DNA from: Thermoproteota archaeon
Lineage (GTDB): Archaea > Thermoproteota > Methanomethylicia > Methanomethylicales > B66-G16
Direction: 5' to 3'
DNA: 20,911 nucleotides
Assembly: GCA_003649085.1 (NCBI GenBank)
Contig: QMQV01000018.1
Coordinates: 1-20,911 of the forward strand
Numbering within the stretch: position 1 is the stretch's first letter; each line of letters begins with the position of its first letter. This document shows positions 3,794 to 20,911 of this stretch, piece after piece. Position numbers and translations under genes: made by a program. The notes under the pieces were generated by a model. It worked only from the letters and a program-made list of their open reading frames with translations, was not told where the DNA came from and did not search any database.

Positions 3794-3797
3794 TTTT

Positions 3798-5735: not shown

Positions 5736-5773
5736 GTAGTATAAATATGAGTAGTATGAAAAGTAGGAAAGTT
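5736..5773. promoter_or_regulatory. Candidate operator at the RHH gene start
   Basis: GTAGTAT occurs at 5736-5742 and 5751-5757, and GTAG again at 5763. A third copy of the promoter arm, GAAAAGT, lies at 5758-5764. The repeats straddle the predicted start site and first codons of the RHH gene; RHH dimers usually bind short repeats of this kind, so autoregulation is inferred. Confidence 0.4.
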
Positions 5774-5884
5774 AAAATCACGATAACCCTCTCAAAGAGC
5801 TTGCTGAGGAAAATCGATAAGGAAAGGGATGATGTTCCTCGCTCAAGATATATTGAAAAACTTTTGAGGAGGGTGATTAAATGA
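5747..5884 (+). CDS. Ribbon-helix-helix (CopG/Arc-type) regulator, 45 aa
   Basis: 45 residues. VKITITLSKSLLRKIDKE is the typical strand plus first helix, and the following VPRSRYIEKLLRRVI gives the conserved turn (here Pro-Arg-Ser-Arg) and second helix. Family members form intertwined dimers that insert a two-strand sheet into the DNA major groove. The strand residues facing DNA would be Lys10, Thr12 and Thr14. It starts leaderlessly from the shared promoter and overlaps the next gene by ATGA, so regulator and secreted protein are co-expressed. It probably represses its own promoter and that of the divergent membrane protein. No toxin gene follows, so an antitoxin role is unlikely. Confidence 0.8.
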   Translation: MSSMKSRKVKITITLSKSLLRKIDKERDDVPRSRYIEKLLRRVIK

Positions 5885-6426: not shown

Positions 6427-6427
6427 A

Positions 6428-7120: not shown

Positions 7121-7340
7121 GGTTTTGAAAAAGAAGGGTTTGCCATATCCAACGATAGAGGCAATTTACAACTTCCTGAAAAAGAAGAAGATATATGCAT
7201 ACACCGCTGATGAGCTAGCGAACGAGCTCCATAGACCGGTATCAACTGTTAGGAGTGCCCTCAGGAAATTAGTATCCTCAAAGAAAATAAAGTTTTCGAT
7301 TGTGGACGGGAAAAAGTATTATTACTATGTTAAAAAATAA
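7104..7340 (+). CDS. Winged-helix DNA-binding protein
   Basis: 78 residues starting at GTG 7104, inside the previous gene; the GGTGGT sequence 5-10 bases upstream supports it. Helices PTIEAIYNFLKKKK and YTADELANELHRPVSTVRSALRKLVSSKKI, then a wing rich in Tyr and Lys (FSIVDGKKYYYYVKK), form a complete winged helix. It ends at the wing, with no effector domain. Such minimal modules are usual in archaeal regulators, and the Tyr-rich wing could contact the minor groove. It is co-transcribed with surface-protein genes and the metalloprotease that follows after 8 bases, so it may control this operon. Confidence 0.75.
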   Translation: MPLKVKVLKKKGLPYPTIEAIYNFLKKKKIYAYTADELANELHRPVSTVRSALRKLVSSKKIKFSIVDGKKYYYYVKK

Positions 7341-7348
7341 AGAGGGAT

Positions 7349-7819
7349 ATGAACAAGAAAGTGGAGGCATTGATTTTGATATGGTTATTCACGAACCTAA
7401 TCCAATTTACAGTTATACCCCACGAGTTCGGTCATCTATTAATGGCTACCGCCCTGAACTGCGACATCTACTCCACCAAGCTCGTCCAACCTCATTTTTA
7501 TTATTTTTTTATACTGATTGAGGGGAAATTCCTATCCAAGTGTAGTAATCCAACCTCAGACGCTCTTGTAGCCCTAGGAGGGTTACTGATAACCCTTTTC
7601 ATAATCATAATCCTCTTCTCCTTACCATATCCATTTCATTACTTCGGTCTAATGGCTCTTGGTCTGGAGCTTGCAGGTATTTTCCAAGATACCTTAATAT
7701 TTGTCGAGTCTTTCTACCCATCGGTTCTAATTGCCCGGACCATAGCAAGCTCCGTCACGTTCATCGGCTTGTTCCTATATTTTCTAGGAGCTCTGCTCTT
7801 CGTGATGAAATATGAATGA
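7349..7819 (+). CDS. M50-like membrane metalloprotease
   Basis: 156 residues with a GAGGG ribosome site at 7342-7346. The first membrane helix contains the zinc motif His25-Glu26-Phe-Gly-His29, followed after a loop by NPTSDALVALGGLLITL, which resembles the M50B arrangement in which HExxH sits in the first helix and a small-residue membrane helix follows. About four membrane spans are predicted (7-31, about 72-93, about 96-115, about 130-152). M50 enzymes cleave substrates inside the membrane. A third metal ligand is not certain: Asn67 or Asp71 are candidates. The gene lies between two winged-helix genes (8 bases after one, overlapping the next), which suggests signal-dependent release of a regulator or processing of a surface protein. 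An inactive or non-proteolytic relative cannot be excluded. Confidence 0.65.
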   Translation: MNKKVEALILIWLFTNLIQFTVIPHEFGHLLMATALNCDIYSTKLVQPHFYYFFILIEGKFLSKCSNPTSDALVALGGLLITLFIIIILFSLPYPFHYFGLMALGLELAGIFQDTLIFVESFYPSVLIARTIASSVTFIGLFLYFLGALLFVMKYE

Positions 7820-8087
7820 TTTAGAATTTTTGCTCGGCTGTAAGCTCAAGACGCTTTACTCAGTGTTAAAATCGATGTATCCAACGAGGGGTTATCCGCT
7901 AACCCAGAGTCAGATATGTAGGAGGGCGAAGATGACCTACTCCTACTTGCACAGATTACTCAAAGCTATGGAGGGGCTTGGACTAGTAACTAGACATAAG
8001 CTCGGGAGGGAGGTCAGGGTAAGCCTCACGGATAGAGGAGAAACACTAGCCAAGATGATATTATTTGTAATACAACAAAAGCTTTAA
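7812..8087 (+). CDS. MarR-like winged-helix regulator
   Basis: 91 residues with an 8-base overlap with the metalloprotease gene. Helix LKTLYSVLKSMYPTRGYPLTQSQICRRAKMTYSYLHRLLKAMEGLGLV carries the helix-turn-helix, followed by a wing with RHKLGREVRVSLTDRGETL and a C-terminal helix that may dimerise. The phrase L.DRG..LA is typical of MarR/PadR-like archaeal proteins. It closes the operon that begins at 5747, and its stop codon overlaps the TATA element of the putative RNA gene that follows. Target unknown; the metalloprotease or the adjacent RNA are candidate partners, by position only. Confidence 0.75.
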   Translation: MNDLEFLLGCKLKTLYSVLKSMYPTRGYPLTQSQICRRAKMTYSYLHRLLKAMEGLGLVTRHKLGREVRVSLTDRGETLAKMILFVIQQKL

Positions 8088-8089
8088 AG
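8082..8089 (+). promoter_or_regulatory. TATA element of the putative RNA gene
   Basis: CTTTAAAG follows a purine-rich stretch (ACAAAAG) like a BRE. Its centre is about 26 bases before G8112, exactly where the GC-rich hairpin begins. It overlaps the stop codon of the winged-helix gene. Confidence 0.5.
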
Positions 8090-8191
8090 GGACGCAGTTT
8101 CATTATAATTAGGGGCTTAGCTCCCTGAGGTGGATGTGCCTGAGGGCACCCCCACCCCTGAGTTGGAGCAAGCCACTCCTTCAACCTTTCG

Positions 8192-8209
8192 AAAAAAAGA
8201 TGAGCCATC
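8192..8209 (-). terminator. Possible terminator of the minus-strand surface operon
   Basis: Read on the minus strand, GATG-GCT-CATC forms a small hairpin directly followed by seven T residues (the A-run 8192-8198 of the plus strand), 70 bases beyond the stop of the last gene of the operon. Confidence 0.4.
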
Positions 8210-8212
8210 ACC

Positions 8213-8279
8213 CCGGTCGGGCTTCAGCAAGGTCCAGTTTCCTCCTAGGCATGCGATTTCTAGCCCGACCGGTTTTTTT
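8213..8279 (+). terminator. Long GC stem followed by oligo-T
   Basis: CCGGTCGGGCT (8213-8223) and AGCCCGACCGG (8262-8272) form 11 uninterrupted pairs around a 38-base loop. TTTTTTT follows at 8273-8279, then TATTTT. Oligo-T alone can stop archaeal RNA polymerase. The element probably ends the putative RNA and stops readthrough from the 5747-8087 operon. Confidence 0.55.
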
Positions 8280-8736
8280 ATTTTAAGAAGGAAGCGAGCT
8301 TCAGTAAGCCCAGATTACAGTTTACCTCATTGCCAAGCATAGTCAGATAGGAGAATTCGATGAAGACAGCAAGGCAGTAACTGAGTATTATGATAATACC
8401 GATGAACAGAGCCCCCAGAGTGGTTTCCCTCCTATGGAAGCTTATGGTTGAGGAGAGGATAAATCCATTTATCGCAAAGATTAGGAAGTCGCTTGGGCAT
8501 ATAACCCCAGTCATTATCTGCCTTCCAATCAGGAAGCAAATCGAAGCAGGTATGGAGTAGAAAAAGGAGATTGGCGGTTTAATCAACCAGAGAGGTATCA
8601 TGAGCAGGGAGACATCTAAAATGCTTACAGCTAGGGGAGGAAGATTGAGGACGTTTCCTATCACGGAGAACATCCCTAAGAATAAAGGAGATACAATCAG
8701 GAAAATTGTTTCCTCAAGCCCATTCAAACAGACCAC
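8278..8736 (-). CDS. Hydrophobic membrane protein, unrecognised
   Basis: 152 residues from GTG 8736, or 149 from TTG 8727; the GGTGG stretch overlapping the upper end fits a ribosome site for the TTG. Four to five hydrophobic segments are visible: about 9-28, 33-52, 58-76, 82-96 and 106-127. Charged residues are few (Arg72, His101-Arg102-Arg103-Glu104). No catalytic motif is apparent. The start overlaps the end of the upstream Ig-like gene by about 20 bases, so it is the last gene of the minus-strand surface operon. It might be a channel, a membrane tether or a sorting factor for the surface proteins; none of this can be shown. Confidence 0.6.
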   Translation of the reverse strand: MVCLNGLEETIFLIVSPLFLGMFSVIGNVLNLPPLAVSILDVSLLMIPLWLIKPPISFFYSIPASICFLIGRQIMTGVICPSDFLIFAINGFILSSTISFHRRETTLGALFIGIIIILSYCLAVFIEFSYLTMLGNEVNCNLGLLKLASFLK

Positions 8737-9847
8737 CCTTTTTACTCCTGTAATAAACGAGCAGTAAGATTATATAAGTTGCTACCGCACCTATCGGTAT
8801 TAAATATTTGTAGGGCAGTATAGGGGAAGGCTTCTGGGGAACAATCCTCTGCTTTAGATTGAACACGGTCTCATTGATTGAGTTAAGTAACTTGCATTGC
8901 TCGACCTCTGGTTTATAATCACAGTCTTCCATGTCCCATATCGCAAGAATGGAGGGATAGATGGTATTTCTCAGGTATTCATAGGTCCTTTCGTCAGAGG
9001 CATTGACAGTAATGTTCTCAACCTTTTCCCTTATTTCATACAAGAGGATGCACTTGGTCGTGTTTGGGGAGTAGGAACAATTCTCAGCTTCCCACAGATT
9101 TTGAACCAATGTTTTGAGGTCCGTGATATTGCTTGCCCAAGCAGAGACGTGGAAGGTCGAGGCATCGTAAGAACTGAAGTTACTTCTGGTGCAGTTAACG
9201 AACACGGAATATATGCCAAAAACATTCGGTGTCGTGAAATTGTAGTAGTAAATGCCATTATCCATGTAATTCATGGAACCCTCCTCGAATAGGGTTCTAT
9301 TGGGATAGTATATCCTCACGGCACAGGAGGCGTCCGGGACCAGATTTCCATCAGCATCCTTCACCAAGACCATAATGCTTCCCTCCTCACCACTCGAATA
9401 TTCCGTCGATGATATTATATCCGTGGATAAGGGCAACCTCCCAACCCATATCCAAGAAATAGTTTCTGTGTAGCTGTAATTTTTCTCAGCCCTGATGAAC
9501 AGCTTCCATAACCCAATCTTATTAAATTTGAAACTCAGGCTATAGTTTCCGTCGCCCAGAGACGTGAAATTCACATCATAAACCGTTCCATCTGGGGAAG
9601 TAAGGTTGCCATAGACGATTGCGTCGGGCTCAGGCTCCCTATCGCTCAGGTTAACGGTATTCTGCCTCCACAATCTGATTATTATTGTCGAGTTCTCCTG
9701 CTTCACCAGATTCTCCTCATTATAGACGTAGGGGATATGATACCATGCGAGGGAGACGTTCAGAACCGTATCGGTTGATGATGAGGATTCAGCCTCACAA
9801 TAACCGAGAAACAGGAAGATTAGCAAGATGGGTAGGAGCCATTTCAT
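8714..9847 (-). CDS. Large membrane-anchored surface protein with Ig-like domains
   Basis: 377 residues. The ATG at 9847 is chosen because AGGAGG lies just upstream and it shares an ATGA overlap with the previous gene; the frame stays open further upstream, but there the sequence lies inside that gene. The signal peptide is MKWLLPILLIFLFLGYCEA. Residues about 20-235 form two beta-sandwich segments: the first has NLTSPDGTVYDVNFTSLGDGNYSLSFKF and the second KDADGNLVPDASCAVRIYYP ... DNGIYYYNFTTPNVFGIYSVFVNC. This is the phrase typical of Big/macroglobulin-like Ig folds. A helical region with paired Cys (ENCSYSPNTTKC, EDCDYKPEVEQC) follows, then a membrane anchor (about 347-367) and a short tail. 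Many N-glycosylation sequons are present. It is probably a stalk or structural surface component. Confidence 0.7.
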   Translation of the reverse strand: MKWLLPILLIFLFLGYCEAESSSSTDTVLNVSLAWYHIPYVYNEENLVKQENSTIIIRLWRQNTVNLSDREPEPDAIVYGNLTSPDGTVYDVNFTSLGDGNYSLSFKFNKIGLWKLFIRAEKNYSYTETISWIWVGRLPLSTDIISSTEYSSGEEGSIMVLVKDADGNLVPDASCAVRIYYPNRTLFEEGSMNYMDNGIYYYNFTTPNVFGIYSVFVNCTRSNFSSYDASTFHVSAWASNITDLKTLVQNLWEAENCSYSPNTTKCILLYEIREKVENITVNASDERTYEYLRNTIYPSILAIWDMEDCDYKPEVEQCKLLNSINETVFNLKQRIVPQKPSPILPYKYLIPIGAVATYIILLLVYYRSKKGGLFEWA

Positions 9848-10503
9848 TTTTTCCTCCTGAAGTAAATACCTATTCCAATCCCTATCCCAGCTAAGGGAAC
9901 GATGATTAGGATTATTGGAATTTGCTGTCTCTGGACAAAGGCACATTTATATTCCTTCTGTCCGCATATATTCTCCCTCACCAAGCACTCCTGATTTATG
10001 GGGCATTTGTAATCCCCGCAAAGAACTCCTTTCCCTATACTTCTCCACTCGCTCCAAGGTGGCTTGACTATTAGCTCTAGAGGGGCAACAACCGAGCTAA
10101 TTACCTTGCTACCCGTTTGATTTACCCCCCCAACTTCCGTAGCTTTAGGATAAACCCCTCCTTTAATATGCCACGCAGGGCATTTATCCTCCGGGAATTC
10201 CTCCACCAGAAAGCATATTTTCTGAACCACGAGACCCTCTAAATTCTTTCCAGCATACATCGTATGGGCAGGTATCAACTCAGGTTCTGGAACGGAATAT
10301 GTGTAATTCTTCAGGTCTCCAAGGGTATCTAAATATGCATAAACGGGCTTATCGCTTGGATTTCCTATACCATATTCTATGCAGATTACCTCCCCCGCAG
10401 TTACCTCTTCACTAGTGGTTAGGTATCCAATCCCGAGGGTTTGAGCCCTACAAGTGCTTAAGAATGCTAGGAAAACGGCTAAAAAAATCAAGGTTTTTTT
10501 CAT
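9844..10503 (-). CDS. Secreted protein with C-terminal membrane anchor
   Basis: 219 residues with a GGAGGG ribosome site upstream. The signal peptide is MKKTLIFLAVFLAFLSTCRA, cleaved before QTLGIGYL. The mature part is beta-rich (VICIEYGIGNPSDKPVYAYLDTLGDL) with a Cys-dense later section (VLCGDYKCPINQECLVRENICGQKEYKC), probably a disulfide-bonded knob. The C-terminus is a Gly/Ile membrane helix ending in RRKK. The small sandwich domain around EVTAGEVICIEYGIGNPSD resembles the interaction domains of archaeal surface proteins. It shares an ATGA overlap with the next, larger anchored protein, so the two are likely made together at a fixed ratio and may form a complex. Confidence 0.7.
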   Translation of the reverse strand: MKKTLIFLAVFLAFLSTCRAQTLGIGYLTTSEEVTAGEVICIEYGIGNPSDKPVYAYLDTLGDLKNYTYSVPEPELIPAHTMYAGKNLEGLVVQKICFLVEEFPEDKCPAWHIKGGVYPKATEVGGVNQTGSKVISSVVAPLELIVKPPWSEWRSIGKGVLCGDYKCPINQECLVRENICGQKEYKCAFVQRQQIPIILIIVPLAGIGIGIGIYFRRKK

Positions 10504-10518
10504 CTTTCAGCCCTCCTC

Positions 10519-11088
10519 TTAATCTACACAGTTCTGCCCAGCTTCTACAGCTTGGAAGTAAACAGTATTTTCATAGGTCCCCGGTGCCTGCCCTGCTGGA
10601 ACATCCAACCAGAACCTCAGATACTCATTCTGAGTATTATCTAAGCCTGTGTCCATCTTTTGATAAGATGTTGTGAAGGCTTTCTTTGCTGATAGGGAAG
10701 GTGTATTTGCGTCGGTAGTTGTGCTATTTGCGAAGTAATAATTGCTTAAGGCTATAGTATTACTTCCGGAGGTTAGGGGACCATCAGCCTTTATACAGTA
10801 ATCCACATTTACATTGGTATCCTCGCTCACATTAATCCAGTAATCTGTCCCACCAGAACCATAATTGTTACCATCTGCATTGTTGTCCGTAGTCCCTTGC
10901 TGTAGGTTCGAGAATACTATACCAGTTTGCAAAGTGGGGCTTAGCTGGATTGCGATATAAACGGCTACGGTTGCGGAAGTTGTAGTCGAGGCATTGGAGG
11001 TTACTACCGCTTCACCTTTCTGAGGTAGTATCAAAATACTAGCTATTGCAAATGCTACAATCCCCAAAACTGCTAGCTTTTTCATCAT
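10519..11088 (-). CDS. Small secreted beta-sandwich protein, possible filament subunit
   Basis: 189 residues; the signal peptide is MMKKLAVLGIVAFAIASILILPQKGEA, with alternative ATGs at 11088 and 11085. The mature protein (about 160 residues, Ser/Thr/Asn-rich, almost without Lys) carries the phrases LSPTLQTGIVFSNL, TDYWINVSEDTNVNVDYCIKA and YLRFWLDVPAGQAPGTYENTVYF. The last is shared with the C-terminal half of the upstream gene's product. Size and composition are like donor-strand or TasA/AbpA-type filament subunits, an analogy only. It has its own possible TATA element (TTTATCAAT on the minus strand, 11111-11119) about 28 bases before the start, in contrast to the closely spaced neighbours, as expected for an abundant subunit. 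Confidence 0.65.
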   Translation of the reverse strand: MMKKLAVLGIVAFAIASILILPQKGEAVVTSNASTTTSATVAVYIAIQLSPTLQTGIVFSNLQQGTTDNNADGNNYGSGGTDYWINVSEDTNVNVDYCIKADGPLTSGSNTIALSNYYFANSTTTDANTPSLSAKKAFTTSYQKMDTGLDNTQNEYLRFWLDVPAGQAPGTYENTVYFQAVEAGQNCVD

Positions 11089-11110
11089 ATAATTTTAAAA
11101 ACCTCTTGGA

Positions 11111-11119
11111 ATTGATAAA
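11111..11119 (-). promoter_or_regulatory. Possible internal TATA element for the small sandwich protein
   Basis: On the minus strand TTTATCAAT is centred about 28 bases before the ATG at 11088, in the 36-base gap behind the stop of the previous gene. It would add a leaderless transcript for the putative major subunit. Confidence 0.4.
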
Positions 11120-11124
11120 TTTTT

Positions 11125-11994
11125 CTAATCCACTGGACTATAACCATTTTGAACCCCTTGGAATTTCAGCCCTGCATTATAAGTCCCTGCGGATTGTCCA
11201 GATGGGACATACAATCTAAATTTCAGATAGACAACTGTTCCATCCTCAAGATTTGAACCTATTGCTCCCTGACTGAAAGCCGTTCCTATCGGGTCATAAG
11301 TTGTTGGAACCGTGCTATCAGTTGTTGAGTAGGCAACCTCTATATTGGATATAGGTATCTGTTGAGAGTCAGTTGTCAGGTAGCTCTGATTTCCCTTGAC
11401 GTAAAGGTCGGCATTACAACCCTTTGCAGTAATCGTGATGTTGTAATCTGTAACCCCATCACCATTGTTCCCAGTTGCATAGCAGTATTCACCGGTCGGG
11501 CTACAGCCATCGAAATTCACACCATTCGAGAGAACAGAGGATAGGGAAATGGAGATAACGCAGACTTTGAAGGTTGTTGAGTTTGAAGCCGTATTATCGT
11601 AGCTATCGTTAGCCCACACCCACACTTCCCAAGTCCCACCGGGGTCCGTTGATTGAATAGTATAGTTATATTCATATATTGTGCAGTTCGTCCCGCAACT
11701 TTCGCCAGTGTCGGTCATCAACTCAAACTCAACCTTCTTCACATTGTTCGGGTCTGTTATATTTATTCTCACTTGGTCGATATCATTCAAATCATCGCTC
11801 ACATTAGCTCTTACTATAACCTTCTGCCCCCTTTCAAACACCTCAACAGCAACATAGGTCTCGTTGTAGGTTATAGGCTTATACACAAAGGGTGTGGCGA
11901 GTATAAACTCGGTTATTTTTGGTAAGAAGTAAGCAAGCAGGAGGAGAACAATCGATAGGAACAGGTAGGATAGTTGCTTTATTTTCTCCATCAT
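11125..11994 (-). CDS. Anchored two-domain surface protein (Ig-like plus subunit-like domain)
   Basis: 289 residues from the ATG at 11994, with AAAGGGA upstream; the in-frame TTG extension is rejected because it lies inside the radical SAM gene. Residues about 5-29 are a hydrophobic segment that could be a signal peptide or signal anchor. Residues about 45-140 form an Ig-like domain (VIVRANVSDDLNDIDQVRINITDPNNV ... GGTWEVWVWANDSYDN, the phrase of CARDB/Big-like repeats). The last ~145 residues align with the next gene's product: ISLSSVLSNGVNFDG, VTDYNITITAKGCNADLYVKG and YLKFRLYVPSGQSAGTYNAGLKFQ. This subunit-like end on an anchored Ig stalk suggests a base, tip or cap that joins the filament formed by the downstream protein; inference. 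Confidence 0.7.
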   Translation of the reverse strand: MMEKIKQLSYLFLSIVLLLLAYFLPKITEFILATPFVYKPITYNETYVAVEVFERGQKVIVRANVSDDLNDIDQVRINITDPNNVKKVEFELMTDTGESCGTNCTIYEYNYTIQSTDPGGTWEVWVWANDSYDNTASNSTTFKVCVISISLSSVLSNGVNFDGCSPTGEYCYATGNNGDGVTDYNITITAKGCNADLYVKGNQSYLTTDSQQIPISNIEVAYSTTDSTVPTTYDPIGTAFSQGAIGSNLEDGTVVYLKFRLYVPSGQSAGTYNAGLKFQGVQNGYSPVD

Positions 11995-11996
11995 TT

Positions 11997-13337
11997 TTAA
12001 ATTCCCTTTATGGCACACATCGGAACTCCGGGAAGGGGCTCATCAAGTCTCTCAAGCTCTTCTGGTTTCTTCAAATACAGGTAGAACAGCAAGTCGAGAC
12101 CGAGATTAAAATCTCTATTCAAATCTATATTTTCCGGTGTAAGAATCCTACTAAGGGTAAGTGCAAGGTCCTTTCTCCTATAATGATTTAGCTTGGCTCT
12201 TATGTATCTAATCAGTTCCGGAAGGAGCAAGGGGAGATGGAGCAGGAACTTCCCTATGGGCATGTTCAGTATTTTCTCTATCTTCCTGTTCATTCTCTTT
12301 ACTTCTTCCAGAGGAAAGAGGGGTTTTATTGTTCCATCCTCAATCTTGAAGAAGATGATGTCGTAGAGCATATCAGTATCCACTTCCTTCTTATTGGGCT
12401 TCAATCTATAATATACCTTAAATGCGTTCCACTTCAATCTCTTGAGCTCGTAGAAATATTCCTTCGGTATATTGTAGGTCTTGGAGACCTTTTCAACTAC
12501 ATCACTCGGTCTAGTATCGCTCGGATACAGGCTTATAGCCCACAAATCCTTTATGAACTTATTTTCATCTCTTATTATGAAGTCTATCACTTTCGGTAGC
12601 TCATCAATATTTTCCTTCGAAACCACCATGAATATATTTGTTGGAACATTATATTTCCTCAGCAATTCAATAGCCTTCTCCTTCCTCTTTAGCCACTCCT
12701 CACCATTTACCCCTCTCCACTTCTCATAAATTTCTGGTTTCCACCCATCGAAGCTCAGACAAACCCTATAAACTTTCTTTTCCTTCATCTTCCTGACAAA
12801 GCTCTCCTCATCTAGCATAGTCCCATTTGTCAATACCCAAGCCCTCTTCCCCTTCTTCCTTATAATATCTAAGATTTCGAAGAACTGAGGATGGATTGTC
12901 GGCTCTCCGCCAGTCAGAGTTATTGTCTTCCCCTTGTAAATTTCTAAAAGTTCCCCCAACTCCTCGGGTTTCATATCCCTCTCTTTCAGAGCGTCTCTTA
13001 TGAAACATACCTTGCATTTCATGTTGCATTTGCTCGTTATATAAACTTGGGGACAAGGCATGGTATTTAGTTTCTTCCTCCAAGCATCTAAGACGGTTTC
13101 CCCAATCTCCAGCTTCTGAGATACGAAATCCTCGAAATTTAGCCTGAACTCCCTGTAAAATTCCGCATCATTTTCAAGCTTATACACTATCCTTCTCCCA
13201 CAATGTTCCTTAACCAGATAAACACCGTCTTTAGTTTCAATCAAATCCGCTTCGATGACTTTGAGACATGTGGGACAGAAACTCAAGGTTTTAGAAAGTA
13301 AGGTCCCTTCCAGCAATTCCTCAACTCTTAATTCCAT
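11997..13337 (-). CDS. Radical SAM protein, Tes/MJ0619-like
   Basis: 446 residues. The radical SAM signature is Cys104-X3-Cys108-X2-Cys111 (SKCNMKCKVCF), followed by TLTGGEPTIHP (GGE at 143-145) and WVLTNGTML. The N-terminus has FCPTCLKVIEADLIETKDGVYLVKEHCG, with Cys21, Cys24 and Cys46, the layout of the metal-binding N-terminal part of tetraether lipid synthase (Tes) and other MJ0619-class enzymes. It also has the MPCP phrase just before the barrel. The C-terminus (GVPMCAIKGI) echoes the final Cys-containing motif of that class but is shortened. Tes forms C-C bonds between archaeal lipid tails; this relative is shorter and may act on a different lipid or a protein. Being first in an operon of surface proteins and divergent from a UbiA-like gene supports lipid or surface modification. 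Function is uncertain. Confidence 0.75.
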   Translation of the reverse strand: MELRVEELLEGTLLSKTLSFCPTCLKVIEADLIETKDGVYLVKEHCGRRIVYKLENDAEFYREFRLNFEDFVSQKLEIGETVLDAWRKKLNTMPCPQVYITSKCNMKCKVCFIRDALKERDMKPEELGELLEIYKGKTITLTGGEPTIHPQFFEILDIIRKKGKRAWVLTNGTMLDEESFVRKMKEKKVYRVCLSFDGWKPEIYEKWRGVNGEEWLKRKEKAIELLRKYNVPTNIFMVVSKENIDELPKVIDFIIRDENKFIKDLWAISLYPSDTRPSDVVEKVSKTYNIPKEYFYELKRLKWNAFKVYYRLKPNKKEVDTDMLYDIIFFKIEDGTIKPLFPLEEVKRMNRKIEKILNMPIGKFLLHLPLLLPELIRYIRAKLNHYRRKDLALTLSRILTPENIDLNRDFNLGLDLLFYLYLKKPEELERLDEPLPGVPMCAIKGI

Positions 13338-13374
13338 AATAAATTTAAACGATTTTGAGTTAATAAATTTTAAG
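13338..13374. promoter_or_regulatory. Compact bidirectional promoter between the radical SAM and UbiA-like genes
   Basis: Only 37 bases separate the two ATG codons. AAATTTAAAC (13341-13350) is centred about 29 bases before the plus-strand start at 13375. On the minus strand TTTATTAA (13360-13367) is centred about 27 bases before the start at 13337. TAATAAATTT is directly repeated at 13337-13346 and 13361-13370. Both transcripts would be leaderless, and each TATA box lies close to the start site of the other transcript. Confidence 0.6.
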
Positions 13375-13935
13375 ATGCTTGGAAAGATTTTCTATAAGAT
13401 AGAGGGTTGGTATCCTCTTCTCGGACTACCGCTCATCTCATCGCTCTATCTCAGGGATTTCTCCTTCTTTCCAGTAGCATTCATTCTCTCGCTCTTGCTT
13501 CTCTCACTTGCCCATGCATTCGATGACGGGAAGCCAACATCTATAATTTACTTTCTCCTAGCATTGTTCATAAGCTTACTCACAGATACAATCCAGCTAA
13601 CCCTAGTAATTTTCGTCCTCATAATCCTATACAAATTCTTTAAGAGGACCCCACTCTCCGCTTTCTACGTCGGTTTTTCCTACCCGACTTTGCTATTCTT
13701 CCAGTTCCGCCCTTCCCTCGGATTTTTCTTTCTCTACCTGCTCTTTTCCATATTGATAACTATAAGCGAATTTTATCATGAAGCCCATCACTACGAACAG
13801 GATTTGAAGGAAGGGAGGAAAACTACAGCAATTTACTTTGGATTTAAAGTTGATGAAGCTCAGAGAAAGGAGGTGAGAAGGTGTTTAATAGCCGTGACCG
13901 TGGCTGTAATAGTCTTCATCCTAGTAAGTGGTTGA
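13375..13935 (+). CDS. Short UbiA-like membrane protein
   Basis: 186 residues from the ATG at 13375 (in-frame upstream codons lie inside the divergent radical SAM gene). Five to six membrane spans are visible. Residues 47-56 (HAFDDGKPTS) stand where UbiA prenyltransferases have their first Asp-rich motif. Residues 138-157 (HHYEQDLKEGRKTTAIYFGF) match the second motif, D-X-X-X-D-X-X-X-G-K-X-T, with the first Asp changed to His139 or lost and Asp143 kept. UbiA enzymes transfer prenyl chains; the archaeal one, DGGGP synthase, makes membrane lipids and is about 100 residues longer. This protein is therefore reduced or divergent and may not be catalytic. Being divergent from the Tes-like gene and co-transcribed with a GT-C gene suggests lipid or glycan-lipid work. 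Confidence 0.55.
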   Translation: MLGKIFYKIEGWYPLLGLPLISSLYLRDFSFFPVAFILSLLLLSLAHAFDDGKPTSIIYFLLALFISLLTDTIQLTLVIFVLIILYKFFKRTPLSAFYVGFSYPTLLFFQFRPSLGFFFLYLLFSILITISEFYHEAHHYEQDLKEGRKTTAIYFGFKVDEAQRKEVRRCLIAVTVAVIVFILVSG

Positions 13936-15443
13936 TTTTCATATTTGCTTTGGCAATCCTCTTCAGGCTCTGGGTTTATTGGATAACGGATTTCGCTACT
14001 CTAGGGGCGGATGTAGGGAGGATGGCAATAATAGCCCATGCGTGGAAGCTCAAGGGCGGAGTTACTACAGACCTCAGACCCTACGATATGGCTAATGGCT
14101 TCTTCTACTTCCCCGCAACCTTATACTTGCTTTACTTCTTCGATTTACTCGGAATAAATCCAATAACAGCAGTTGCTATTTTCACTTTCGTGTTCTCGAT
14201 TGCTGGAATTTATGTATTCTACAAAATAGCAAGGATTTTCATGGACGAAGATAGAGCCATAGCTTCAACCTTCTTTTACTCGCTCACCTTCGACTTCATC
14301 TGGATTTACTCTTTCTTCGGGATGTTCACCTTCGGATGGGCTCTCCTCTTCTTCATGATTTCCTTATACTCCGCTCTCAGATTAGAGGAGAAGCTATGCT
14401 GGAAATGGTTCTTGGTGAACCTATTATCAACAACAGCATGCTGGCTCTTCCATTGGTTTGCAATAGCTGGTTTATGTATAGCCTACTTCTCCATCTTCCT
14501 TAAACAATTCATAACGGATTTGAAGACCAATTGGAAATACTTCTTGGTTCTCCTTTCAAGCTTACTGATAGGTTTTGGAATATCAATCCCAGCTTACCTC
14601 CCTTTCATCGAATACATCGGAATAACGAGGGTTTATGAAAATCAATTCGACCTCCTCACTTTCGCTATGGACAGGCTCTTAATCACCCCTCTCCAAAAAT
14701 TTCAAATCATTTTCTTTACGAGCTACGTAGGGACAATCCTCTCCTCAATCTTGGTGGTAGGCTTCGTGCTAACCCTCGCCCTCGCTTACAAGTGGATATT
14801 AACTAAAAATGCATTCCCAATCTACTTCTTCCTCCTCCTCGGATTTTTCTCCTATGTATTCCTCGGCGAATTGAATATGCTGAGATTGAATAGTTTGATG
14901 TGGATAACCTATGCTATGGCTTATGGTTATTTCTTCAATAAACATAAGCTGAACTTAATTTTAATCCCAATCCTCTTCCTCATTCCATCCCCGAGCTTCC
15001 CCTATCTCATAAACGCTCTGTATAATCAGGCTGATATCTTCGTCCCATTCGCAGATTTCCATAAATTCAATAAGGCAATGGCGTGGATTAGTGAGAACAC
15101 ACCAATAAATTCGACATTTCTCATTGATGGTGGAGGTAGCGGATGCACGGGGGCTTCAGCATCATTTGGAGAGAGGATTTTCCCACTAACTTCGAGAAGG
15201 ATTTTCTACTTTACCGACTACTGCTGGGCTATCTACGATAGAGACGAATTCATGAGAAGGGTTGAATTGTATAGAAAAGTCAGCATAGACCCATCTTGCT
15301 GTATCGACGAACTGAAGGAGTATGGGATAAATTATATTTTCATAGGGGAGAGGTGGGTAGGTCTCAACCCAAGAAAGTTTGAGGAAGCTGGCTACGAGTT
15401 GGTCTACAATGAGAGCGGATACAGGATTTTTAAGGTTAATTAG
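13881..15443 (+). CDS. GT-C-type glycosyltransferase-like membrane protein
   Basis: 520 residues starting at GTG 13881, 4 bases after GGAGGTGA, the strongest ribosome site in the window. It overlaps the UbiA-like gene by 55 bases. The first membrane helix is followed by LGADVGRMAIIAHAWKLKGG, an extracytoplasmic loop with Asp as in GT-C enzymes, where that residue is catalytic. At least ten further membrane spans run to about residue 380. The last ~140 residues are a soluble domain (MAWISENTPINSTFLIDGGG ... ELKEYGINYIFIGERWVG ... ELVYNESGYRIFKVN) of the kind that closes archaeal GT-C/YYY-type proteins. It likely moves a sugar from a polyprenyl-linked donor at the outer face of the membrane. 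Substrate unknown; the sequon-rich proteins encoded around it are obvious candidates. It is not AglB: no WWDYG motif. Confidence 0.7.
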   Translation: MFNSRDRGCNSLHPSKWLIFIFALAILFRLWVYWITDFATLGADVGRMAIIAHAWKLKGGVTTDLRPYDMANGFFYFPATLYLLYFFDLLGINPITAVAIFTFVFSIAGIYVFYKIARIFMDEDRAIASTFFYSLTFDFIWIYSFFGMFTFGWALLFFMISLYSALRLEEKLCWKWFLVNLLSTTACWLFHWFAIAGLCIAYFSIFLKQFITDLKTNWKYFLVLLSSLLIGFGISIPAYLPFIEYIGITRVYENQFDLLTFAMDRLLITPLQKFQIIFFTSYVGTILSSILVVGFVLTLALAYKWILTKNAFPIYFFLLLGFFSYVFLGELNMLRLNSLMWITYAMAYGYFFNKHKLNLILIPILFLIPSPSFPYLINALYNQADIFVPFADFHKFNKAMAWISENTPINSTFLIDGGGSGCTGASASFGERIFPLTSRRIFYFTDYCWAIYDRDEFMRRVELYRKVSIDPSCCIDELKEYGINYIFIGERWVGLNPRKFEEAGYELVYNESGYRIFKVN

Positions 15444-15831
15444 GGTAATCGTAGTGATTTTATTCCTGTATTCCCTCTACTTGTTTCTATCTCCCCTAGT
15501 CGGCTTCGTGGAAACCCCCATGAAAGTGAAATTCGGCTGTGAGCCAGTTAATAGAACTGAGGATTACTGCTATTTTAAATGCAAGCTAACGCCTAATATG
15601 GATGCCACAGCAATCATAAAAGTCACTCACACCCTCTGGGCTTCAATTTACGAGAAAAAATTTGAACTGGAAGCAAACAAGACCAAGGAAATCTACATTC
15701 AACTACCTCGAAGGAGATTTATTTACTGGCTTAGGGCAATATTTTTCAAGCAGGTAGGGGAAAGGAAGGGTTTGTTCCTTAGAGGCTATAATGTTTACTA
15801 TGATTTGAACCAGACTTTCTTAGCTTGTTAA
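15409..15831 (+). CDS. Small N-terminally anchored extracellular protein
   Basis: 140 residues from the ATG at 15409; TTG at 15379 would add ten residues, and both starts lie inside the GT-C gene. One membrane helix (residues 10-30, IRVIVVILFLYSLYLFLSPL) is followed by an extracellular domain with Cys44, Cys53, Cys57 and a final Cys140: MKVKFGCEPVNRTEDYCYFKC, then an alternating polar/hydrophobic region (TAIIKVTHTLWASIYEKKFELEANKTKEIYIQLP) like a small Ig sandwich. There are three N-glycosylation sequons. It closes the plus-strand operon and overlaps the radical SAM gene of the other strand by 12 bases, tail to tail. It may be an accessory subunit of the glycosyltransferase. Confidence 0.6.
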   Translation: MRADTGFLRLIRVIVVILFLYSLYLFLSPLVGFVETPMKVKFGCEPVNRTEDYCYFKCKLTPNMDATAIIKVTHTLWASIYEKKFELEANKTKEIYIQLPRRRFIYWLRAIFFKQVGERKGLFLRGYNVYYDLNQTFLAC

Positions 15832-17274
15832 AGGAAACCTGCGGGTCTCCGCTTTAATCTTCTTGTCCAGCGTCTTCCCTTTAATGGAAAAATACCTCTT
15901 CAGCATAGCTGTCAAGATAACCACGAGGGTGTTCTGCAACTTGTTATTCATTACGAATGGAACGTTATTAACGATGGGTGAGAGCTCATCTTCCATAATC
16001 TCGACATCATAAGATTCTGGATTTCTATGCACATCGCAGTTGTAGGCGAGGTAGAAGTAGTTAGCATCTATTTCTCCTATGTATTTTTGGAGGAGGAAAG
16101 TTCTCAAGATGGTTCTTAAAGCTCCCAGAAATGTGGTTTTTGGGAAGAGGAATAGGAGTTGAACATCAACATCCACTCCCGCTTCGCTCAAATTCTTCAC
16201 GCTATCAATAACCTCTCTCTCCGTCACATTCTTACCGAGAATTTTCAAATCCTTCGTATCGAAGCTCTCAACCCCAAGCCATACCCTCCTGCACCCAGAT
16301 TTCTTAATCAGGAATGCGGTTTCCCTATCTATCCTCGGGAACATCATGCCTTCCCACTCCACCTCGAGCTCCGCCAACCCCCTGCATAGCTCCTTTATCC
16401 TCTTAGGATAGGGATTTACTATATTGTCGCAGAAGAAAAATTTATTTTTAATCGATTTTAGCTCCCGGATTTCCTCCAAAACCTTTTCTATATCCTTTTC
16501 CCTATACATTTCCCCGCAGGGAAAGGTCCTTATGTTACAGAACCTGCACCTATTCACACAACCTCTCTGAGTTTCCACCCCTAAGAAGCAATATTTCCCC
16601 GTGTCTAAATCCCTGTAATTCGGGGTCGGGAGATTGTTTAGATTGACGAGGAATTCGTTAGAGAAGATAACCCTGTCCCGAACATCATTTGCGATTTTCA
16701 GCAATGCATGCTCCCCTTCCCCAACGATAATGTGGTCTATAAAATCGTATCTGAGAAGGAATTTCCAGCCGTAGAGAGTTCCCGGACCTCCGAAAATGAT
16801 TTTCAAATCCTTTCTTTCCCTTTTCAGAATTTTAGCTACATTCAAAGAGTGACCTATGCTGAAAACATCAGTCGAGAATCCAACGAGGCTTGGTGAACAG
16901 TCCATAATGTTCTCAGCAATTTCCAGATGAGTTTCATGCATTAAGTCATCCACCTCATCGAAGTCTTCCTCCTTTTTGTTGACCAGATACAGGGGGTAGA
17001 TGACCTTCGACCAAGCCCTTCTAAGGGCTACCTTCCTTACAACGTATCTTAAGATTGTGGAGTTGATGGCTGAAGCCCTGAGATAGCACTCAGCCAATTC
17101 CTCATCTTCAACCTTCTTCTTCCTGACAATTTCCACGAATTTTTCATTATAGCTTGGGGAGAAATCAACTACCTTGGTCTCCAAACCTTTTTGCTCGAGA
17201 AATGCTTTTAACAGAGCGAGATTCAGGGGTGCAACGTAATTCCATCTCAGGGGGAGTTGAGCCAAGACAATCAT
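15820..17274 (-). CDS. Cobalamin-binding-type radical SAM enzyme
   Basis: 484 residues from the ATG at 17274, chosen because it forms an ATGA overlap with the upstream gene and has GAGGTG about 8 bases before it; a GTG three codons earlier lacks a properly spaced site. The N-terminal ~215 residues form a B12-binding-like Rossmann domain (MIVLAQLPLRWNYVAPLNLALLKAFLEQKGLETKVVDFSP; later IIFGGPGTLYG and HIIVGEGEHALLKIA). There is no clear DxHxxG, as in many members of the class. The radical SAM barrel starts at QRGCVNRCRFCNI with Cys239, Cys243 and Cys246. Family members methylate unactivated carbons in lipids, RiPPs and cofactors. Its coupling to two surface genes suggests that a surface protein or lipid is the substrate; inference. 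Confidence 0.8.
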   Translation of the reverse strand: MIVLAQLPLRWNYVAPLNLALLKAFLEQKGLETKVVDFSPSYNEKFVEIVRKKKVEDEELAECYLRASAINSTILRYVVRKVALRRAWSKVIYPLYLVNKKEEDFDEVDDLMHETHLEIAENIMDCSPSLVGFSTDVFSIGHSLNVAKILKRERKDLKIIFGGPGTLYGWKFLLRYDFIDHIIVGEGEHALLKIANDVRDRVIFSNEFLVNLNNLPTPNYRDLDTGKYCFLGVETQRGCVNRCRFCNIRTFPCGEMYREKDIEKVLEEIRELKSIKNKFFFCDNIVNPYPKRIKELCRGLAELEVEWEGMMFPRIDRETAFLIKKSGCRRVWLGVESFDTKDLKILGKNVTEREVIDSVKNLSEAGVDVDVQLLFLFPKTTFLGALRTILRTFLLQKYIGEIDANYFYLAYNCDVHRNPESYDVEIMEDELSPIVNNVPFVMNNKLQNTLVVILTAMLKRYFSIKGKTLDKKIKAETRRFPLTS

Positions 17275-18110
17275 GCAACGCACACCTCAAGTGGCTGTAA
17301 CTTAACATTCTTTTCCCCGCAACATGGGTAGGGCTTGAGCCAAGCCTCAAGCCTATTCCCGCTCTTCGTCCCATTGATTATGAACTCCGGGTAGTCGAAC
17401 CTATGGTATATTATATTATTCCAGAAACTCATCTTCAGATGAACCCTTGAATATCTGGGGACCGGGAAGACCAAGCAAAAGGGTTCGGTTAAGCTATCGT
17501 TAAATTCGAAGACGAATATGGCGTTCATCCAAGTTCTATTGACCTTGAAGATGTTCATGGGGTCGGATTCAGCTAGGCTAACCAAAGTTTGGTAGCTTGG
17601 CTTCTGATTATAGGAAAAGTAAACTATTTTCCCCGGATTGCCATTCACTAGGAAGTAGGCAGGACTGAGGGAGAGAATTGCCCCGGATTTGAGAAATAAC
17701 CTTTTCTTACTTTCCAGTCTGTATAAGGTTCTGTAGAAATCGGAGATGGTTGCATTGGGATAGAAGGTTACATTGTAATAAGGTATTTTGTAGCGGACCC
17801 ATCTCCAGACCAGAGTTAGGAAGTTTCCACCCCAAGAGCTCTCATTGTATAGCAAGACGGTTAAATTCACAGCCAATCTATTGGATGAAATCTGTCTTAT
17901 CTCTATGTCGGTATCGCTGAAGTGATACTGCGTCCCATTCTCATAAGCATCTAAAGCCTTTCTAATTATGCTCCTCTCCACCTCTTTGTATCTCTCGATA
18001 GCCTGAGAGAGAGTATCAGCCCTCGCATACAAGCTCATCGTAATGAACATTTGAACGATGCTTATCAGAAACATTATAACAGAGCAAATGAACAACTTTT
18101 TAGCTATCAT
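17271..18110 (-). CDS. N-terminally anchored extracellular protein
   Basis: 279 residues, ATGA-coupled to the giant protein upstream and to the radical SAM gene downstream, with GGAG upstream. A membrane helix at 5-28 is followed by a predicted helix (DTLSQAIERYKEVERSIIRKALDAY), then a long beta-rich region with aromatic residues (DIEIRQISSNRLAVNLTVLLYN; VRYKIPYYNVTFYPNATISDFYRTLY; SRVHLKMSFWNNIIYHRFDYPEFIING). Several N-glycosylation sequons and a late PYPCCGE pair are present. There is no recognisable catalytic motif. The anchor-helix-sandwich order fits a minor surface or pilus-like component that supports or exports the giant neighbour. I do not recognise the family. Confidence 0.65.
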   Translation of the reverse strand: MIAKKLFICSVIMFLISIVQMFITMSLYARADTLSQAIERYKEVERSIIRKALDAYENGTQYHFSDTDIEIRQISSNRLAVNLTVLLYNESSWGGNFLTLVWRWVRYKIPYYNVTFYPNATISDFYRTLYRLESKKRLFLKSGAILSLSPAYFLVNGNPGKIVYFSYNQKPSYQTLVSLAESDPMNIFKVNRTWMNAIFVFEFNDSLTEPFCLVFPVPRYSRVHLKMSFWNNIIYHRFDYPEFIINGTKSGNRLEAWLKPYPCCGEKNVKLQPLEVCVA

Positions 18111-20911
18111 TTCTTCTCCAGTTCCTCAAACAACTTCTTGAATTTCTCTATATGCTCGGGCTTTATCTCAATCCTTATCTCCTTCTTCCTCTGAGACACA
18201 ACAACATATAAAATGATGCCTCCAACGATTATGAACACTATTAAGTATATTAATATTTGCTCGATGGGCATCCCCAAGTAGGTCTTCCTGTAGGTTATGG
18301 AGGATACAGGTCCAATTATGTGTTCCCTAGCAACAGTGTAGTTATACTTAATCCAGTGGTAACCTGCATCCCAAGAACTTTCTTCGAAGTCCTCTGGAAT
18401 TATGAAACAAAGTTCTTCAGTTCCGAGGGTATAATTTATTGGCTTCCCATCGGATAGGGCTGTGAGGTTCTCCATATTGTTATAGTAGTCAACTTCCCTC
18501 TCCAGATTGACGCAGTATCTTATCTCCTTCTGCTTCGTCAGGTTTGCTAGGTCGCTTACAACCCTGTGAGTGGAGTTATGCTCCCAGACAACGTAATCAA
18601 GCTCCTCAAGTTTACTCTTGCTTTTATTAACAGTAACGACAGGATAGCAAGTCCCGTTTATGGTTACGTTCTTCACACTCCCGTTGCTTATATCCACATA
18701 GACATAGCTTGATGGGAAATCCACACTCGGATAGTCATCGACCATCGTATTGTATCTAACGAGAACGTTGCTATAACTCACATTCTCATCTGTATTGTTC
18801 AGAGTTACATTGAATCTTGCATAATACTGGCTATCTACTAGTATGTATGGAGCGTCTATCGTGAGGTTCCAGAGCAATTTCTTTATAATATCGTAAGCCC
18901 TGCACCTCGTATCTATCCAGTAATAGCTGTTGGCTGAGAAATTGTAATACTCATACTGTTCCACAGCCTCCCAACCTTCTCTACAAGTGAGGTTGAACAC
19001 GACATCCTCGAAGTCTATAGAGGAGGGGTTATGGACGTAAGTCCTTTGCTTGGAGTAAGCCCAGCCACCAGCTTCTGTGATATTTAAAGTGTCTTGCTCC
19101 CAAAGGTAGATGGTCTCCCACAATACATCGCCACTATCGTTTGCGTATACTGTATTGGAAGTATCTGTCAGGTTAACGAAACCACTACAATTGTCGCAAT
19201 CCCCGAATTCATCTGGGTTGCTCGTCCACCAATATATATCCTTAAATGGTATGTCCGTATTCCTGACCAGATAAATCTCTTGGGAGATGAACTGGGTTGA
19301 GAGGTTGGAGGTCTTGCTCTTATCTTGCTCCCAGTCATAGAACACCTCATCTATATTATCTCCGGAAGCCCTCCCCGAGCTCAGGTTCTTATCCTCATTT
19401 GCTGAGATATTAAAGTAGTCGCATACGTTTTGGGTTATGAAGCTCCAGCTACCGGATGGGAAGCTAACGTTAGAAAAGTCCCAGCAGAAATACACGTTCT
19501 CCCAAGGTATATTAGCGTGATTGTGAACCGACAGATTGCTCTTAATATACTGGACATCTATCCTCGATTGAGAATCCGGGTCCTGCTCCCAAGGTAGCTG
19601 AGTTTCATTTAACCAATCGCCGTAAGCCATTACGTAGGTGCTAAAGTTGGAGTTAGCTGAGATATTGAAGGTTCCGGAACAGTTGTAGCATACAACCTCA
19701 CCGCTCCATCCCGCCTCGGCTATATCTGGAGAGGAGATGGTATATGAGACATTTTCAAAATCTATTGGCTCCAAGTTGGTGAAGTTTACCGCTTCAATCA
19801 CCCACTGCCTGCTGAGGTTCGAAGTGTTTGAAGAGTCTTGTTCCCAGCCCAATTCCGTGATTTGTATTCTGTTATACTCCGACCAGTTGAAAATAACCTT
19901 AGTTGTTACTCCACCACCAACCGATAATAGCATGTTACCGCAATGAATAGCTGTGTAACTACCATTCGCTCCATAGGGGCACTGGTCATAGATTACGACT
20001 TCTTCATCCACCTCGGCGTAATTACTCACGTTGAGGGAAGCGTATTCATACACATCTCCTCCAGCTACAGACTGGTAGCTCTTATCCTGAGCAACTACCA
20101 GAGCAGAGGTATTCGTTGCATTAATCCAGACATACTTACAGGTATAGTTAACCACCTCCCCAGCATTCACCGATGCGGGGAAGGTCAAGGAATTACATGA
20201 GGTGCAACTATCTAATAGGGTTCCATCAGGATAGTAAACATAGACTTCATCAACATTTGGATAAGTTTCACAGGTCAGGCTACGCCACCAGTCTATGGTT
20301 CCTGTATTATTCAAAGTGAGGTTCTTCCAGTAGCTCAGGTTCCCAGTATCCGAAGCGTTCAGGTAAACGGTCTCTACCTGCTTTTCCTCCTGCCATTCAG
20401 GTTGGATAATCAGTGTAATCGCTATGGTATCAGACATATTATAATTACCGCTGGTATCATTGGCATTGATTGAGCAGTTAATCTGCCCGACCTCATTACT
20501 AATCCTCGTTGCGTAGTATGTCTTCCCTTCGAGTAAGCTCATTGAGAGATTTCCATTCCAAGCCCCGGAACAATTCGCCCACACGCTATCAAGAGGTGTG
20601 TTATTCGTTATGTTAGCCCTTATCTCCATCGTTTCTCCGGGTATGAGGTTCGGATAGACCGACCATACGGCATCGAATTGTATCATCCACGTTGTTACGT
20701 AGGTGTAAATCTCCGACGCATTCCACTGGTTCGAGGTATCATTAGCATAAACTCTCCATGCTATGGTTGCCCCTGCGGTTGAGTTTACAACTTTTGTAAC
20801 ATTGGACCAACATTCCTTGAATGGATTAGGACACATTTCTTCTGTAAATGCGACCCAAGTATCATTCACCCAACCACCGACACAATTAGCACCGTCCCAA
20901 GTTCCGTTACA
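18107..20911 (-). CDS. Giant surface protein with WEQD repeats (5' end outside window)
   Basis: At least 934 residues. The reading frame stays open to the right edge, so the true start and signal peptide lie outside; the GTG at 20869 is only an internal codon. Four tandem units begin with Trp-Glu-Gln-Asp at residues 342, 427, 513 and 590 (counted from 20869), spaced 85, 86 and 77. Each holds SNLS-type and NISAN-type phrases and Cys pairs (CYNCSG, CDNCSG). A degenerate unit begins near residue 259. Earlier segments (WNGNLSMSLLEGKTYYA) are Ig-like with ANCSG/INCS cysteines. More than 50 N-glycosylation sequons are present. A single membrane helix (about 870-891) and a charged cytoplasmic tail (about 893-920) end the protein. 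Such layouts suit S-layer-like, adhesin or spike proteins. Confidence 0.8.
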   Translation of the reverse strand, partial: CNGTWDGANCVGGWVNDTWVAFTEEMCPNPFKECWSNVTKVVNSTAGATIAWRVYANDTSNQWNASEIYTYVTTWMIQFDAVWSVYPNLIPGETMEIRANITNNTPLDSVWANCSGAWNGNLSMSLLEGKTYYATRISNEVGQINCSINANDTSGNYNMSDTIAITLIIQPEWQEEKQVETVYLNASDTGNLSYWKNLTLNNTGTIDWWRSLTCETYPNVDEVYVYYPDGTLLDSCTSCNSLTFPASVNAGEVVNYTCKYVWINATNTSALVVAQDKSYQSVAGGDVYEYASLNVSNYAEVDEEVVIYDQCPYGANGSYTAIHCGNMLLSVGGGVTTKVIFNWSEYNRIQITELGWEQDSSNTSNLSRQWVIEAVNFTNLEPIDFENVSYTISSPDIAEAGWSGEVVCYNCSGTFNISANSNFSTYVMAYGDWLNETQLPWEQDPDSQSRIDVQYIKSNLSVHNHANIPWENVYFCWDFSNVSFPSGSWSFITQNVCDYFNISANEDKNLSSGRASGDNIDEVFYDWEQDKSKTSNLSTQFISQEIYLVRNTDIPFKDIYWWTSNPDEFGDCDNCSGFVNLTDTSNTVYANDSGDVLWETIYLWEQDTLNITEAGGWAYSKQRTYVHNPSSIDFEDVVFNLTCREGWEAVEQYEYYNFSANSYYWIDTRCRAYDIIKKLLWNLTIDAPYILVDSQYYARFNVTLNNTDENVSYSNVLVRYNTMVDDYPSVDFPSSYVYVDISNGSVKNVTINGTCYPVVTVNKSKSKLEELDYVVWEHNSTHRVVSDLANLTKQKEIRYCVNLEREVDYYNNMENLTALSDGKPINYTLGTEELCFIIPEDFEESSWDAGYHWIKYNYTVAREHIIGPVSSITYRKTYLGMPIEQILIYLIVFIIVGGIILYVVVSQRKKEIRIEIKPEHIEKFKKLFEELEKK
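18860..19846 (-). repeat. Four tandem WEQD protein repeats
   Basis: Units of 77-86 residues share WEQD at the start, a hydrophobic core around an Asp/Pro-Phe/Trp-Glu-Asn/Asp-Val phrase (FENVSY, WENVYF, FKDIYW, FEDVVF) and an Asn-rich SAN phrase near the end. On the plus strand TG(C/T)TCCCA marks each WEQD. The fourth unit ends in a diverged edge. Confidence 0.7.

Follow-up and report, generated by a model that had tools for sequence, protein, structure and literature searches.

Three separately recurring gene blocks adjoin at a putative archaeal cell-coat locus with a Tes-related radical SAM protein, a UbiA-like protein and a GT-C enzyme

Tes, Gms and Grs are enzymes that modify archaeal membrane lipids. 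Most archaea of the DPANN group live on other cells, their surfaces decide their partners, and the building of their coats is poorly known. According to PMC9433317, tetraether synthase (Tes) carries a rubredoxin site of the form CX2C-X20-CX2H, an N-terminal cluster bound by C73/C77/C80 and a histidine, and, towards the C-terminus, a cluster that has a labile methionine; its reaction proceeds via a bond between the substrate carbon and a cluster sulfur. A pentofuranose system described in PMC11127046 combines a UbiA-type polyprenyl-phosphoribose synthase with a flippase and the GT-C enzyme GT136. Here, we analysed a 20,911-nucleotide stretch of archaeal DNA (contig QMQV01000018.1, positions 1 to 20,911), referred to as the window; all positions are those of the whole window. 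The window encodes two radical S-adenosylmethionine (SAM) proteins, one Tes-like and one B12-binding, as well as a short UbiA-like protein, a GT-C glycosyltransferase accompanied by a small partner, and surface proteins that are secreted or anchored.

The analysis revealed three blocks of genes, side by side in the window, each of which recurs separately. The first comprises a protein with a subunit domain, a stand-alone subunit and a C-terminally anchored partner. The second joins the short UbiA-like protein with a divergently oriented Tes-related radical SAM protein that lacks the auxiliary-cluster motifs, and the third contains a GT-C enzyme of oligosaccharyltransferase (OST)/ArnT fold, its four-cysteine, one-helix partner and the B12 radical SAM enzyme. 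The enzymes show a real and recurrent linkage beside a surface operon that recurs independently. An earlier sequence-only reading, which covered 8278..17283, had proposed a single dedicated filament-building system. This view was supported in part, by the linkage of the enzymes beyond the window. A single dedicated filament-building system was not supported: the subunit and anchor block recurs in eight other genomes, with enzyme homologs at none of the nine loci analysed, and a GT-C gene in the genome G076 has no Tes-like or B12 gene beside it. The occurrence of the genes apart in related genomes, which that reading had named as its refutation, was seen for subunits versus enzymes and not for the enzymes among themselves. 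Our preferred explanation, which we place just short of an even chance, is that the blocks adjoin at a cell-coat locus where the UbiA-like, Tes-like and B12 proteins would tailor a lipid-linked sugar and the GT-C enzyme would transfer it.

The Tes-like protein (TesL; 446 residues, 11997..13337, minus strand) scored above the Pfam cut-offs for the radical SAM domain (PF04055, 93.0 bits) and the HMPTM zinc ribbon (PF23545, 35.8 bits). Its nine cysteines (21, 24, 46, 95, 104, 108, 111, 193 and 441) include the radical SAM motif CX3CX2C (C104, C108, C111) and three of the four ligands of an N-terminal zinc-ribbon/rubredoxin-like site (C21, C24, C46), where the histidine is absent (CGRR). Among its relatives P0001, P0002 and P0003 (100%, 49% and 33% identity), P0002 has this histidine (CCEH) and P0003 lacks the second cysteine. 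Searched against the PDB, a three-member TesL profile gave tetraether synthase (7tol) as the best match (7.3e-44, 153.5 bits), limited to the N-terminus and core, and the core also matched peptide-maturase radical SAM models in NCBIfam. The N-terminal auxiliary-cluster motif CPxxCGxC was present in P0004 and in the Tes of G076, and absent from TesL, P0002, P0003 and the G035 relative; in these same four proteins the C-terminal auxiliary-cluster cysteines of the G076 Tes had no counterpart. With both motifs missing and a score of 83.2 bits against the cut-off of 450 of the NCBIfam Tes model (NF045702), TesL was rejected as a genuine Tes. The control for that model, at 713 bits, was a full tetraether synthase at L055:17021-18592 in G076, a genome of ~0.7 Mb that belongs to the phylum of G001, meaning the genomes drawn around the genome of record L012 (Candidatus Pacearchaeota).

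The UbiA-like membrane protein (186 residues, 13375..13935, plus strand) starts at the ATG at 13375 within a frame open from 13255, and only that longer frame was scored against Pfam PF01040, which it passed marginally (34.3 vs 34.2 bits). Its relatives in G035 (253 residues) and G149 (277 residues, 36% identity in the alignment) carry NDFFD and NNFFD, respectively, at the first Asp-rich motif NDxxD, where the window protein has FDDGK. The shortfall in length consists of internal gaps and ~40-55 residues at the C-terminus, and simple hydropathy showed four hydrophobic stretches; UbiA prenyltransferases have nine transmembrane helices according to PMC11127046. The missing motif and shortened chain suggest that the protein may be a minimal or decayed UbiA. 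The G149 UbiA matched the A. fulgidus UbiA structure 4tq3 at 2e-5, and the G035 protein was nearest to archaeal prenyltransferase models, all below cut-off.

The GT-C enzyme (520 residues, 13881..15443, plus strand) is read from a GTG at 13881, although the start may be the TTG at 13932, which overlaps the stop of the UbiA-like gene. Its Pfam score was sub-threshold (PMT_2, 15.8 bits vs 26.1), but the predicted structure showed a clear GT-C_A fold (mean predicted local distance difference test score, pLDDT, 82), with OST/AglB, ArnT, Pmt4 and AftD among the PDB matches. The alignment of the family (A5) comprised 14 members. Relatives of the enzyme include P0148 (98% identity), P0150 from Candidatus Aenigmarchaeota (49%), P0158 (45%) and the more distant P0183 from a Parvarchaeota archaeon (32%), and these affiliations make a DPANN (Aenigmarchaeota-like) archaeon the most likely source of the window. 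Overlapping the 3' end of this gene, the small one-helix partner (150 residues, 15379..15831, plus strand) carries four invariant cysteines and keeps the same position next to GT-C in G149, G076 and G035. Its last residue is a conserved cysteine in 4/4 GT-C partners (15379-15831 and the relatives in L053, L051 and L054).

The B12-binding radical SAM enzyme (487 residues, 15820..17283, minus strand; CX3CX2C at C242/C246/C249) exceeded the Pfam cut-offs for both B12 binding (PF02310, 56.9 vs 32.1 bits) and radical SAM (PF04055, 61.5 vs 29.5 bits). The closest NCBIfam model was TIGR03975, for C-methyltransferases of ribosomally synthesised and post-translationally modified peptides (RiPPs), at 89.9 bits under a cut-off of 281.85. 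Of its relatives P0121, P0122 and P0123 (95%, 39% and 40% identity), P0122 and P0123 also fell under this cut-off (131 and 147.6 bits); P0123 was nearest to the RiPP model, and P0122 to BzaD (138 bits, cut-off 450). When 7996 candidates were scored, 27 reached E <= 1e-5 and three were at least 39% identical. No RiPP precursor gene turned up, no search having been aimed at one. The enzyme calls of the sequence-only reading were upheld: two different radical SAM types were confirmed by Pfam domains, the prenyltransferase-like call held barely, the GT-C call was carried by the modelled fold, and the gene order bore out the interleaving of enzymes with surface-type proteins.

Linkage of the enzymes was also seen beyond the window. 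Near-copies of TesL (P0001) and GT-C (P0148) lie on an ENA contig of length 12066, and the near-copy of the B12 enzyme (P0121) on an ENA contig of length 2522. The more distant P0002, P0122 and P0158 each lie on one JGI contig with a printed length of 21198, and judging by this equal length, rather than by the contig itself, the three genes seem to share it. In G035, all four enzyme types occur within ~15 kb: the small protein, GT-C and B12 enzyme share a strand, with a DegT-type aminotransferase, another B12 enzyme and a Glyco_transf_22 gene coming next, while the UbiA gene is divergent to the Tes-like gene at 115 nucleotides (37 in the window), ~10 kb from GT-C. The UbiA and Tes-like pair forms a divergent block that occurs again in G035. 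G149 presents the B12 enzyme (+), small protein (-) and GT-C (-) in the same convergent order as the window. GT-C and the small protein with an adjoining B12 enzyme form a further block, in the window's order in G149 and in another order in G035. The UbiA gene of G149 is on a different contig, next to a family 2 glycosyltransferase gene. PF02310 exceeded its cut-off twice in G035 (both in the GT-C cluster), three times in G149 (one adjoining GT-C) and once in G076 (elsewhere). In G076, a radical SAM gene of another type (L054:2323-3333; Pfam 88.4 bits, with a TesL-core match) is divergent to GT-C, on the side opposite the small protein, whereas in the window and G149 the B12 gene lies beyond the small protein. 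A profile of the window and G035 UbiA proteins matched 6/279 genomes, the best two being G035, itself a profile member, and G149; with G035 left out, the overlap of UbiA and GT-C genomes gave a hypergeometric value of 0.036.

The surface block behaved independently of these enzymes. It comprises a presumably secreted protein that begins with a helix and ends in a subunit domain (297 residues, 11125..12018), a stand-alone subunit with a signal-like N-terminal helix (189 residues, 10519..11088), and a C-terminally anchored partner with conserved Cys and a YG..NP motif (219 residues, 9844..10503), all on the minus strand. The subunit domain of the first two is 36% identical in alignment. At E <= 0.001 this domain was found in 12/279 genomes, with two to four matches in 8 of the 12, and none of the 12 was a GT-C genome (not significant). 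Nine loci (L086-L094) were taken from the eight multi-match genomes, leaving out four genomes with single or weak matches. In these operons, subunits of ~190 residues often stand in tandem and the anchored partner is Cys-rich; its homolog lay among the subunit genes in 8/9 loci, the ninth locus being at a contig end. The profile members were drawn from the same loci, so that the matches of the anchored-partner hidden Markov model are partly circular; blastp with the window protein alone recovered 3/8 partners (1.7e-10 to L086, 5.6e-9 and 5.8e-4). The window's order, a larger protein ending in the subunit domain, then subunit(s), then anchored partner, was kept in L087-L090 and in L091, where the contig start cuts the larger protein; in L086, L092 and L094 the partner sits between the larger protein and a subunit-type protein of 275-294 residues. 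The window subunit alone recovered all nine loci by tblastn (1.4e-19 or better), and eight subunits from six loci of other genomes were 33-39% identical to it. No homolog of GT-C, the small protein, UbiA, the Tes-like protein or the B12 enzyme was detected at any of the nine loci (profiles at 1e-4, B12 at 1e-3; tblastn with the window proteins at 1e-3). The subunits had no Pfam or PDB relative and none was found in viral contigs; the anchored partners shared no NCBIfam family, one of nine giving PEF-CTERM at 9.5e-4.

Under the preferred explanation, the UbiA-like and Tes-like proteins would act on a lipid-linked sugar by making or tailoring its isoprenoid part, and the B12 enzyme would methylate or rearrange the sugar or lipid of this donor or, less likely, an exported protein. 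The donor of the GT-C enzyme would be a polyprenyl-phosphate-linked sugar, as for GT-C enzymes in general, and the enzyme and its partner may pass this sugar on from its lipid to coat proteins or glycans on the outer side of the membrane. The subunits are probably exported and part of the coat, as targets or neighbours of the sugar path rather than its defining partners. The full sequence of steps, coat glycosylation in which a cluster-stripped Tes relative, the UbiA-like protein and the B12 enzyme remodel a lipid-linked donor that the OST-fold GT-C and four-Cys partner attach to surface proteins, we regard as doubtful. Several observations weigh against the preferred explanation. The substrates of the enzymes are inferred, and the window showed no recognisable gene for a flippase, a phosphatase or sugar activation. 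The UbiA-like protein, without the first N/D motif and the C-terminal end, may be inactive. More distant B12 enzymes are frequent (149/279 genomes at E <= 1e-20), and those adjoining GT-C in G149 and G035 are HpnJ/BchE/ApyD-like and not orthologs of the window's enzyme (23-24% identity). In G149 no Tes-like gene lies near GT-C, and in G076 neither a full Tes-like gene nor a B12 enzyme stands beside it. The co-occurrence of UbiA and GT-C comes from one independent genome. Only the UbiA subtype is informative, since the general UbiA model matches 3/3 GT-C genomes and 14/14 control genomes; the G076 UbiA belongs to a different type, and a second UbiA gene is found elsewhere in G035.

A rather unlikely alternative is that archaeal membrane lipids are the substrate of the UbiA-like and Tes-like pair, perhaps joined by the B12 enzyme, with GT-C and the surface genes as mere neighbours. 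The tetraether synthase as best solved relative of TesL, the archaeal prenyltransferase affinities of the G149 and G035 UbiA proteins, and the pairing of the two genes in the window and in G035 are consistent with this. However, both auxiliary-cluster motifs are missing from TesL, and it is via a carbon-sulfur bond to such a cluster that Tes works (PMC9433317). The pair also sits with GT-C in the window and in G035, and the G149 UbiA adjoins a glycosyltransferase.

We judge it improbable that the surface subunits receive C-methyl groups or cross-links from the radical SAM enzymes, ahead of export or in its course, which would give a modified filament or spike layer. The affinity of the B12 enzyme to the RiPP C-methyltransferase model, the peptide-maturase matches of the TesL core and the interleaving of the genes would fit, but the model scores are far under the curated cut-offs, the subunit block is conserved in nine loci without enzyme homologs, and the subunits of the window and of these enzyme-free loci remain 33-39% identical. 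We give little credence to chance as the reason why unrelated enzymes lie in a hotspot of surface genes, which may be part of a mobile element. In its favour, the left part of the window has small winged-helix-like and Hjc-like genes with few known relatives, and the blocks are found apart in other genomes. Against it, other DPANN genomes repeat both the back-to-back UbiA/TesL arrangement and the B12/small/GT-C order at roughly 20-36% identity, and a second organism seems to have three of the enzymes, at 39-49%, on one contig.

The remaining surface-type genes of the locus are also on the minus strand. They encode a membrane protein with five overlapping hydrophobic segments (151 residues, 8278..8733), which overlaps the gene of a sequon-rich anchored protein with two hydrophobic helices (380 residues, 8714..9856); a secreted or anchored protein with an N-terminal helix (279 residues, 17271..18110), which overlaps the B12 gene; and a large surface protein with a C-terminal helix and charged tail (at least 934 residues, 18107..20911, open at the window edge). 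The sequence-only reading had counted eight sequon-rich or anchored surface proteins; within 8278-17283 there are six surface-type or membrane proteins besides the four enzymes, and eight if the last two are added. Compared with the mean of 500 composition shuffles, sequons were in excess in four proteins (8714-9856, 17 vs 4.2; 11125-12018, 9 vs 3.9; 17271-18110, 8 vs 2.3; 18107-20911, 55 vs 14.6) and not in the subunit 10519-11088 (3 vs 3.4). Coupling by ATGA overlaps was found at one junction (17271-18110/18107-20911); the UbiA-like/GT-C junction is likely a TTGA overlap, the remaining overlaps are of 12-65 nucleotides, and gaps of 15 and 36 nucleotides flank the subunit gene. The start codons of the UbiA-like and Tes-like genes are 37 nucleotides apart, in a gap of 86% AT. 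This gap is the compact bidirectional promoter of the sequence-only reading; TTTAWA on both strands also appeared in 1275/5000 shuffles of the same gap and is no evidence beyond composition.

Several further features were observed in the window. The gap at 8088-8277 is GC-rich (54% vs ~41-45% around it), gave a folding z of -1.74 and has two long hairpins, the second with arms CCGGTCGGGC/GCCCGACCGG and a T run; no Rfam family matched this gap, nor did any reach the gathering score elsewhere in the window. A second surface cluster lies on the opposite strand (5881-8087, +), with a MarR-type regulator, a membrane protein resembling M50 (sub-threshold), and two proteins that start with a helix, one of 181 residues and one of 239 residues with a coiled coil. 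An unlisted gene (5747-5884, +) encodes a 45-residue ribbon-helix-helix-like protein with HicB-like/CopG antitoxin matches below cut-off; its stop codon shares bases with the ATG of the surface gene 5881-6426. The run of small genes at 124-5240 (+) looks like a mobile-element segment; it encodes an Hjc-like nuclease (3798-4154, +; 24.0 vs 21.1 bits), proteins of winged-helix type (sub-threshold) and a membrane protein with a coiled coil. Its frame 2721-3509 had no relatives in viral contigs, phages or 194 genomes, and megablast gave no matches between the window and phage or plasmid records.

If the full sequence of steps outlined above, coat glycosylation included, is true, it would bring a new kind of chemistry to surface glycans and assign the Tes lineage a new function. 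Two enzyme types of the locus are uncharacterised, namely the Tes relative that lacks auxiliary-cluster motifs and is paired with a UbiA-like protein, and the GT-C of OST fold with its small partner; each of them, like the recurring subunit/anchor operon, is a defined gene set that can be expressed and assayed. In the open-licence literature, we found no paper joining UbiA, radical SAM and glycosyltransferase in DPANN archaea, radical SAM and glycosyltransferase in Aenigmarchaeota, or a cobalamin-dependent radical SAM enzyme with a glycosyltransferase at the archaeal surface.

The comparison with known systems differs from block to block. The subunit block may resemble archaeal threads and the donor-strand filaments of TasA/camelysin type in its signal-like N-terminus, its beta-rich subunit model (mean pLDDT only 57, too poor for fold comparison) and its tandem subunit genes with an anchored partner, although the window subunit has no sequence match in Pfam or the PDB. 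The fold of AglB/STT3 and ArnT (GT-C_A) spans most of the window GT-C chain, including the C-terminal soluble domain, at only 10-14% identity; no WWD occurs anywhere in its sequence, and we presume that its DGGGSG stands where AglB has WWDYG. The B12 enzyme shares with the RiPP C-methyltransferases (TIGR03975) the order of B12-binding and radical SAM domains, matched over ~380-400 residues, while the scores of its family reach between a third and half of the cut-off. TesL has in common with Tes/GDGT-MAS (MJ0619, PDB 7tol) the N-terminal Cys-rich ribbon and the radical SAM core, and differs in lacking the C73/C77/C80 and His motif and the C-terminal cysteines. Set beside the pentofuranose system, the window's UbiA-like protein lacks the required N/D motif, no phosphoribosyltransferase model was among the NCBIfam matches, and no MATE/SMR flippase or phosphatase was recognised in the window, which has two radical SAM enzymes instead; both systems link a protein of UbiA type with a GT-C enzyme.

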